In this document: positions 39,668-62,482 of the stretch, one piece after another | Layout of the letters: the number at the start of each line of letters is the position of its first letter | How positions within the stretch are numbered: position 1 is the first letter of the stretch | Notes under the pieces: model-generated | Told to the model about the DNA's origin: nothing | Database searches by the model: none | The model's input: only the letters and a program-made list of their open reading frames with translations | Program-made: the position numbers and the translations under genes | Assembly: GCF_013401515.1 (NCBI RefSeq) | Contig: NZ_CP058529.1 | Coordinates: 1,612,001 to 1,676,000, forward strand | Reading direction: 5' to 3' | DNA from: Halorarum halophilum | GTDB taxonomy: Archaea > Halobacteriota > Halobacteria > Halobacteriales > Haloferacaceae | DNA length: 64,000 nucleotides

Positions 39668-39844
39668 GTGGGACTGAAAGGGGCCGCGGCATTCACGGGC
39701 GCAAGCGCCCGTGAATTCGGGAGAGCTTGCTCTCCCGTAACTCGGGGAAGCACGGGCGGTCAAGCACCGCAGCGCGAACGAGCGAAGCGAGTGAGCGCGA
39801 GGAGCTCAGCCGTCCGCACGAGCCGAGAGCCGCGGGGGCTTTCG
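39668..39844 (+). repeat. R1 repeat, copy 1, with an inserted twin-hairpin cassette
   Basis: Left arm TGGGACTGAAAGGGGCCGCG and right arm CCGAGAGCCGCGGGGGCTTT are conserved in the copies at 54.9 and 62.1 kb, with CAAGCACCGCA and GCGAGGAG between them. The arms can pair as a long stem. Here a 50-bp cassette (39691-39740) interrupts the left arm between GCGGC and CTCGG. Confidence 0.65.
39691..39740. repeat. Twin-hairpin cassette inside R1
   Basis: Two back-to-back perfect hairpins: ATTCACGGGCGC-aa-GCGCCCGTGAAT (39691-39716) and CGGGAGAGC-tt-GCTCTCCCG (39718-39737). The same two-hairpin architecture with different stem cores is found at 43268-43319. Confidence 0.65.
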
Positions 39845-54715: not shown

Positions 54716-54820
54716 CGACCGTCGGTGCCGCCGGCGGCCGAAATAGCTTCCCCAAGCGGCCGCGACGGCCGGAGTATGACGTCGGGTGGGTCGAACGTCG
54801 TGGTGGAAACCACCTGTTCG

Positions 54821-54916
54821 GCGCGCGGCGGCCGCGCCCTGTGCGCGGCCGAATTGCGCGAGGGATGAGCGACTGACCGAGCGACAGCGAGGGAAGGCGC
54901 GAATCGGCTGGGGAGG
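54821..54916 (+). repeat. R2 repeat, copy at 54.8 kb
   Basis: From 54856 it reads GCGCGAGGGATGAGCGACTG, then GCGAGGGAAGGCGCGAATCG and GCTGGGGAGG to 54916. The G+C-rich flank 54821-54855 is probably its degenerate start. It sits directly before R1 in the 444-bp divergent gap between the peptidase and DUF3237 genes. Confidence 0.6.
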
Positions 54917-54933
54917 ATGTGGCGGTCGCGGTC

Positions 54934-55062
54934 GGGTAGGACTGAAAGGGGCCGTGGCTCTCGGGGAAGGAGTGGACCGACAAGCACCGCAACCGAGGGA
55001 GCGAAGCGACCGAAGTGAGGAGCGCAGCGGCCGCACCGACCCGAGAGCCACGGGGGCTTTCG
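54934..55062 (+). repeat. R1 repeat, copy at 54.9 kb
   Basis: Left arm GACTGAAAGGGGCCGTGGCT continuing CTCGG, right arm CCGAGAGCCACGGGGGCTTT. The stem pairs GTGGCTCTCGG with CCGAGAGCCAC, whereas the other copies have GCGGCTCTCGG with CCGAGAGCCGC: a C-to-T change on one side matched by G-to-A on the other. Confidence 0.65.
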
Positions 55063-55159
55063 AACACTCCGTCGCAGGCCGGACCAGCCGCCAAACTATT
55101 CGAGTCGTACGCCCCAACCCTGCACCAACTACTTGCCCTCCCACGCAACTACCGAAGGC

Positions 55160-55648
55160 ATGAGTAACGACCCCGAAGAACACGAGAACGAGCACCTCAG
55201 ACCCACCCTCGAACACGCCTTCGACCTGGACATCGAGGTCGAGGAGCCCATCGAGATCGGCGAGACCGGCGACGGGCAGCGCCGCATCATCCGTATCCTC
55301 GACGGGACGGTGTCCGGCCGGATCGAGGGGCACGTCCTGTCCGGCGGCGCGGACTACCAGCTGTTCCGTACCGAGCGTCCGAGCGAACTCGTCGCGAAGT
55401 ACGCCTTCGAGACCGACGACGGGTCACGGGTGTACGTGGAGAACCGCGGCATCCGGTTCGCCTCGCCGGAGGACAGCGAGCGCCTGCGCGACGGCCTCCC
55501 CGTCGACCCCGACGACGTCTACTTCCGCTCGGTCCCGGAGTTCGAGACCGCCGACCCGGAGCTCTCCTGGTTGACCGAGAGCGTCTTCGTGGCCGCCGGC
55601 ACCCGCCAGCCGAAGGGCGTGAAGTTGGCCGTCTACCGCGTCGGCTGA
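55160..55648 (+). CDS. DUF3237 family protein
   Basis: 162 aa from ATG 55160. LRPTLEHAFDLDIEVEEPIEIGETGDGQRRIIRILDGTVSG reads as the beta-barrel DUF3237 fold (related to UPF0311). No catalytic residues are known. It may bind a hydrophobic ligand. It is divergent from the peptidase gene. Confidence 0.8.
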   Translation: MSNDPEEHENEHLRPTLEHAFDLDIEVEEPIEIGETGDGQRRIIRILDGTVSGRIEGHVLSGGADYQLFRTERPSELVAKYAFETDDGSRVYVENRGIRFASPEDSERLRDGLPVDPDDVYFRSVPEFETADPELSWLTESVFVAAGTRQPKGVKLAVYRVG

Positions 55649-62137: not shown

Positions 62138-62259
62138 CGAAAGCCCCCGCGGCTCTCGGCTCGCGCGGCACGCTCTGCGCTCCTCGCTCGCCGTTGTCTC
62201 GCTGTGGTGCTTGAGGTGCCGGGCTTCCCCGAGAGCCGCGGCCCCTTTCAGTCCCACCC
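62138..62259 (-). repeat. R1 repeat, copy at 62.1 kb
   Basis: On the minus strand GGGACTGAAAGGGGCCGCGG continuing CTCTCGGGGAAG; the opposite end is CCGAGAGCCGCGGGGGCTTT. CAAGCACCACA and GCGAGGAGCGCAG lie between. Stem as in the other copies. Confidence 0.65.
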
Positions 62260-62390
62260 GTCGGAGGTGTTACCGAGCGATGCCACCTGACTACCGCGTG
62301 TGGATGCCGTCGGTAGTCCACCGAGGACGTTCGCCCGGCGGAAGGCGAGTGGTGGCAGCAGCGGTGCGGTGGTAGCACATTCCAGCGGGT

Positions 62391-62482
62391 GGCGCGCGTG
62401 ACTGCGAGCCGAAGGCGAGCAGACGCGCGCGAGAGATGAGAAGCACAGCGAGCGTAAGCGAGCGAGCATCGCAATCGGCTGG
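62391..62482 (+). repeat. R2 repeat, copy at 62.4 kb
   Basis: GGCGCGCGTGACTGCGAGCC, then GACGCGCGCGAGAGATGAG and CGCAATCGGCTGG. Its first half closely matches copy 1 at 39.5 kb. R1 and R2 share the 678-bp divergent gap between the ABC ATPase and aldo/keto reductase genes. Nothing else was recognised between 62483 and 62660. Confidence 0.6.

Follow-up and report, generated by a model that had tools for sequence, protein, structure and literature searches.

R1 copies in the window

Three copies of a hairpin element, here called R1, lie in the window (the whole 64,000-nucleotide stretch that was analysed), and they are listed with their parts and neighbouring modules in Table 1. The R1 rod runs from a short outer stem (P0) through two variable stems (P1 and P2) and fixed internal motifs to a tip (P3). 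On the plus strand, the 54.9 kb copy carries GTGGCTCTCGG at 54954-54964 and CCGAGAGCCAC at 55041-55051; the arms of the minus-strand copy at 62.1 kb are GCGGCTCTCGG and CCGAGAGCCGC, and the right arm at 39.8 kb ends in ...GAGCCGC. A preliminary description had proposed that one P1 pair is T-A in the first of these copies and C-G in the others, with both partners changed, and the letters at 54.9, 62.1 and 39.8 kb confirm that this difference is real. At 39.8 kb the agreement covers the right arm, the left arm being cut by a 51-nt insert that leaves only part of it comparable. It is also true of all three window copies, as had been stated, that the outer GAAAG/CTTTC arms pair. A DUF3237 gene at 55133-55648 adjoins the 54.9 kb R1 and has no counterpart at the corresponding place in the two relatives, the Halobaculum genomes G001 and G002.

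Table 1. Coordinates of the R1 copies, their structural parts and the adjoining modules in the window
Feature	Position	Strand	Remark
R1 copy, complete hairpin element (GGGT + AGGACTGAAAG ... CTTTCG)	54934..55062	+	CM match 120.4 bits
P0 5' arm GAAAG, partner CTTTC at 55057-55061	54944..54948	+	copies differ by a double change, A-T to G-C
P0 3' arm CTTTC	55057..55061	+	
P1 5' arm CCGTGGCTCTCGGG	54952..54965	+	
P1 3' arm CCCGAGAGCCACGG	55040..55053	+	
P2 5' arm (GG.GTGG.CCG)	54969..54979	+	
P2 3' arm (CGGCCGC.CC)	55028..55037	+	
Conserved internal motif AAGCACCGCA(G/A)	54982..54992	+	
Conserved internal motif GAGGAGCGCAG	55017..55027	+	
P3 tip, 2-bp steps between tandem G.A, C(GAA)G triloop at 55003-55005	54993..55016	+	
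Second full R1 copy	62138..62259	-	orthologue L126 in G001
Third R1 copy, with a two-hairpin insert of 51 nt (39691-39741) in its left P1 arm	39670..39843	+	
Type B structured module directly 5' of R1 (GGCGCGCGGCGGCC...GAGGGATGAGC...GAATCGGCTGGGGAGG)	54820..54933	+	limits approximate
Type A hairpin (GACTACC..GGTAGTC, 62289-62318) together with a type B module, both 5' of the 62.1 kb copy	62289..62482	-	limits approximate

Size and distribution of the family

The Halobaculum genome to which the window belongs (G000, 4.28 Mb) contains about 70 R1 copies, the 54.9 kb one included. A blastn search with this copy gave 49 matches there, and a covariance model built from 26 copies gave 75 at E<=0.01, some of them the two strands of one place; 71 elements were listed, including 11 minis of 32-39 nt. 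Long blastn matches to the 54.9 kb copy in this genome are 71-87% identical. No near-identical copy was seen, the best match being the one at 87%, and this counts against recent movement. Copies appear to be sparse in the first 1 Mb of contig C1 of G000 and denser at about 1.6-2.9 Mb.

R1 matches were present in 39 of 60 sampled genomes (own genome included), with 0 to at least 57 copies each; up to 57 candidates were scored per genome, so that high copy counts are lower bounds. A phylum-wide sample gave matches in 16 of 148 genomes, all 16 of the same haloarchaeal order, and exact 20-mer matches came from many named genera, all haloarchaea among the matches listed. The R1 family is real, order-specific and conserved in structure. 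Plasmid records held two Halobaculum matches with nothing annotated under the match, and the phage records searched held no R1 match. We did not find a description of an R1-type element in the open-licence PMC literature, by which we do not claim its absence from print; the consulted part of a paper on archaeal G-quadruplex repeats concerns methanogens (PMC8044849).

Covariation of the stem

A structure of 29 pairs was evaluated on an alignment of 26 own-genome copies (MAFFT). Standard pairs filled 91.2% of cells, compared with 77.7% after shuffling (0/500), and pairing dropped to 36-49% when the partner was slid by 1-3 columns. Double changes occurred at 19 of the 29 pairs in these copies. 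An alignment of 39 rows from about 30 genomes, which was fitted to the structure, was 96.9% paired versus 73.0% and had double changes at 25 of 29 pairs, including all 14 pairs of P1. Alignments A3-A5 were fitted to the model, and alignment A2 was made without the insert-bearing copies and one copy with an inverted interior. P0 exists in two states, GAAAG/CTTTC and GGAAG/CTTCC, both of which also occur in minis.

A structure-blind, tree-aware test was also run on 40 own-genome copies of 105-135 nt, with flank statistics calculated without seven odd-ended copies. Its null was our own script rather than R-scape and used 60 simulated alignments with an exponential tail. Twelve of 7626 column pairs were significant at E<0.05, and ten of these are Watson-Crick stem pairs (one in P0, six in P1 and three in P2); the remaining two link P0 with its own subfamily marker and lie within P2 (55% paired), respectively. 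Since significant covariation was found at ten predicted stem pairs, the objection that it might be confined to the single pair of the preliminary description does not hold. The arm letters drift while the fold is kept.

Paired changes at orthologous loci

In G001 the 62.1 kb locus also carries an R1 (L126), beside the same ABC-transporter gene. Comparison of the 62.1 kb arms with those of L126 (GCGGCTGTCGG and CCGACAGCCGC) revealed a C-G to G-C change in P1; P2 has C-G versus T-A and, in addition, one A-T versus G.T. Ten sets of copies share matching coding flanks between loci. In some of these the arms differ with pairing kept (for example L171/L105, L173/L110 and L134/L100), and others are interrupted or hard to align (for example L138/L069, L142/L086 and L152/L109). 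Several loci are common to Halobaculum species, with R1 retained amid diverged flanks. Orthologous loci were sought among 56 relative loci that had been picked for holding R1, so the sets carry no estimate of the fraction of loci that is shared. No clean empty site was found, although both G001 and G002 lack the 54.9 kb R1 at the place that matches. Conversion from another genomic copy could replace both arms at once.

Tip architecture and strand asymmetry

The typical form of P3 is NN-GA-NN-GA-NN-GNA-NN-GA-NN-GA-NN. Of 174 unique sequences, 148 had both internal motifs and 131 could be parsed; parsing was confined to tips of 7-34 nt that had two closing Watson-Crick pairs and a loop of three or four bases. 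The 131 parsed tips comprise 126 triloops and 5 tetraloops. GNA loops number 95 (GAA 43, GGA 33, GCA 17 and GTA 2), with a C-G closing pair at 89. G.A or A.G accounts for 391 of 464 non-Watson-Crick tip positions, and the 5' neighbour of the 179 tandem units is a pyrimidine in 280 cases versus a purine in 54. Hairpins of the d(GCGAAGC) type are extra-stable in DNA, and natural RNA hairpins are more often capped by tetraloops. The C(GNA)G three-base loops suggest that the folding molecule is probably DNA rather than RNA.

P1 was read on the strand carrying GGGACTGAAAG, in 147 of the 159 matches in A3-A5 (duplicates, matches shorter than 85 nt and those with fewer than 20 of 29 Watson-Crick pairs were dropped; this filtering increases the percentages of pairing and excludes decayed copies and those with an inverted interior). 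This strand has 55 G.T but only 8 A.C oppositions (p about 1e-9). The counts were 13 versus 1 when no covariance model was used and 28 versus 12 in a crude gapless count. Strand-symmetric mutation would not give such an excess, which therefore indicates that one strand folds and argues against both a symmetric cruciform and simple homogenisation of the arms. The earlier proposal of selection on a folded form, either RNA or a cruciform, is upheld by the covariation as far as the fold is concerned; the asymmetry speaks against a cruciform in which the two strands are under equal constraint. Folding with DNA parameters gave both strands of two window copies similar energies (z -2.2 to -4.0), which counts against a one-strand DNA reading. 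The wobble share of P1 is 2.8% (55/1940), compared with 8.9% (9/101) in the SRP RNA of the same genome, a small control.

Doublets, minis and nested inserts

The R1 unit is either a rod of about 125 nt or a rodless mini of 33 nt, and it occurs singly or in inverted doublets, whose GGGTGGGACTG sides point towards one another. All 11 close pairs (<300 nt) in the own genome are divergent with their left ends facing, and 7 of 7 close pairs face likewise among 30 loci, 29 of which are from other genomes. Among 120 loci from many genera, 25 of 28 pairs within 400 nt are divergent and three (L213, L269 and L270) are convergent; the G001 and G002 loci contain eight divergent close pairs, and L156, L135 and L142 also have weak or partial same-strand neighbours. 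These locus sets may overlap, and the doublet frequency is given without a formal null. Doublets have the inverted ends AGAAAGCCCC..GGGGCTTTCT; outside Halobaculum a spacer of 18-27 nt is common, as are outer ends that form the inverted repeat GAACARCC/GGYTGTTC, both judged by eye. The P1 arms of the two members of a doublet are unrelated, so the arms are not simply copied between partners.

None of the 71 own-genome copies lies inside a gene predicted by our home-made gene caller. The flanking genes are co-directional at 37 copies, divergent at 17, convergent at 15 and undecided at 2, with no evident bias. A typical mini, GGGTGGGACTGAAAGGGGCC-GC-GGGGGCTTTCG, consists of the ends without the rod, and in the 33-nt mini the rod (about 95 nt) has its place at the central CCGCGG. 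The minis fit either a loss of the rod, through slippage between the GCCGCGG repeats at its base, or a gain of the rod at CCGCGG. Minis with the variant GAACG..CTTTC, which breaks P0, recur in G001 and G002. In four G000 copies (C1:739295, 2056324, 2457825 and 2559216; L070, L087, L095 and L098) the rod interior is inverted relative to the ends. Two-hairpin modules are nested in R1 at 39691-39741 of the window and at L021:374-609, L028:374-622 and L034:359-588. One type of nested module recurs within the internal motifs, at CG^CAG, which resembles insertion into hairpin loops. No target-site duplications were obvious by eye in the outer flanks.

Search for a mobilising enzyme

The Y1 (REP/IS200) transposase domain PF01797 gave 0 matches in the three Halobaculum genomes G000, G001 and G002, with a positive result for the Haloferax volcanii control. 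Y1 was present in 32 of the 60 sampled genomes: 4 of 13 with at least 25 R1 copies, 17 of 26 with 1-24 copies and 11 of 21 with none. Its presence did not track R1 copy number (Spearman -0.08, p 0.55, 60 genomes), and no Y1 was seen by eye beside R1 among the coordinates listed. A Y1/RAYT protein is thus unsupported as the present mobiliser, being missing in the three Halobaculum genomes and unrelated to copy number, and on these grounds we do not claim membership in REPINs or PATEs. Two other candidates were rejected. The frames between the convergent copies at 1.86 and 1.94 Mb, considered as an autonomous version, looked ordinary, and no transposase was recognised among them by eye; beside the copy in genome G041 (L041), one of three frames tested had a domain, HVO_A0114, and nothing else was found.

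Interpretation

REPs and the ends of IS200/IS605 elements are recognised as a folded single strand. On balance, we favour the view that the interspersed R1 hairpins of haloarchaea are REPIN-like elements, likewise read as a folded single strand of DNA. One R1 strand would fold when it is single-stranded, be it during lagging-strand replication, by supercoil-driven extrusion or as an excision intermediate. A structure-specific protein would then read the shape together with a few fixed bases, namely those of P0, of the T-A pair that hardly varies in P1, of both internal motifs and of the C(GNA)G-capped G.A ladder. If so, the shape would be kept while the arm letters drift by paired changes. The element presumably spreads, or once spread, as mobile DNA. 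A more specific version is tentative and, to us, rather doubtful: R1 would represent a REPIN-like class, either selfish or domesticated, that is maintained as folded ssDNA with a tandem-G.A ladder under a C(GNA)G minihairpin cap and is handled by a structure-reading protein other than a Y1 transposase, an undescribed enzyme.

Several known systems share features with R1. REPs and REPINs, which are associated with RAYTs, are also short interspersed extragenic hairpins that form inverted doublets and singlets, and compensatory changes have been reported in them with a predicted fold as ssDNA or mRNA; in the parts of that report consulted, they differ from R1, which has a much longer rod of about 125 nt, is archaeal and has strongly diverged arms (PMC3116915). 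A further difference is the lack of Y1/RAYT in the three Halobaculum genomes. The PATEs of Haloquadratum are IS605-type and transposase-free, and SMR-A inserts of about 110 bp with inverted ends occur in them; like R1, these elements are haloarchaeal, palindromic and heterogeneous, with nested inserts (PMC3119063, consulted in part). The position of SMR-A within near-terminal palindromes is reminiscent of the R1 rod within the 33-nt mini, although rod loss would explain the minis too. In contrast to R1, whose matches are 71-87% identical, SMR-A copies are commonly more than 95% identical, and PATEs are described there without the terminal inverted repeats that R1 doublets have. A DNA hairpin with a C-G closing pair and a G..A triloop is also found in the promoters of the phage N4 virion RNA polymerase, where the closing pair and the G..A loop bases are needed for extrusion from duplex DNA; the hairpin is extruded by supercoiling, its loop is ordered on only one of the two strands and it is read by a protein (PMC4496689, in the sections consulted). 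Those hairpins are small phage promoters, however, and we claim no sequence relation to R1.

Some of our evidence would also suit a structured RNA, with R1 transcribed from its own gene or by read-through and the RNA fold selected. The covariation is strong, G.T is tolerated on one strand, tandem G.A and G-U tolerance suit RNA as well, the internal motifs are fixed and the RNA fold of the 54.9 kb window copy is very stable (-64.2 kcal/mol, z -5.95). We nevertheless think this rather unlikely. The genes on either side of R1 may be convergent, divergent or co-directional, the tips are triloops with almost no tetraloops, the wobble share is low, Rfam returned 0 matches in the window at the gathering score, and the G-rich 5' side of R1 has no obvious TATA-like element by eye. 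Paired changes could also arise with no selection on shape, by template switching (quasipalindrome correction) that homogenises inverted arms, and the long, near-perfect arms and the four interior-inverted copies of the own genome, which strand switching could give, agree with such a process. Correction would, however, erase the mismatches that persist (the tandem G.A steps, a GGG/GGG internal loop and the fixed motifs), and the G.T/A.C asymmetry is not predicted by a duplex-symmetric process, which makes this origin highly improbable.

Bacterial BIMEs have been proposed as nucleoid, replication or topoisomerase sites, and R1 might similarly be a resident host DNA element that is not mobile. 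The loci common to Halobaculum species, where R1 has outlasted its flanks, fit a resident element too and so count against mobility, and intergenic placement without orientation bias is in keeping with it. The range of copy numbers within one order and the complete lack of copies in near-complete relatives speak against residence, as do the nested inserts and minis, which are typical of mobile repeats; we judge it improbable. A narrower form of our preferred reading, overlapping with it, is that R1 is an IS200/IS605-type PATE or REPIN moved by a past Y1 transposase that has since been lost in Halobaculum. In its hairpin ends, inverted doublets and nested inserts R1 is similar, as far as the consulted parts of the two reports go, to REPINs (PMC3116915) and to PATEs with SMR-A (PMC3119063), and Y1 is common in the order. 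This form is nonetheless unlikely given the Y1 results in Halobaculum, around R1 and across copy numbers.

Were the folded-DNA reading of R1 correct, the family would be the haloarchaeal counterpart of bacterial REPINs, with a much larger hairpin and mostly without the usual transposase in copy-rich genomes. It would also be a clear natural case of a selected fold of DNA, not RNA, that includes sheared G.A steps and GNA loops, and the search for the cognate protein would become straightforward. It would, in addition, caution against taking covariation by itself as proof of an RNA.

Associated hairpin modules

Two further kinds of module were observed near R1. Type B (GGCGCGCGGCGGCC..CGCGCGAGGGATGAGC..GAATCGGCTGGGGAGG) represents a second dispersed hairpin-rich family, with members at 54820-54933 and 62374-62482 of the window and at L301-L307; the piece at 62374-62482 also has matches at places without a listed R1. 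The type A hairpin is located upstream of many R1 copies, and its variants, GACACCC..GGGTGTC and CAACTGAC..GTCAGTTG, stay paired, so that this hairpin seems to covary as well.
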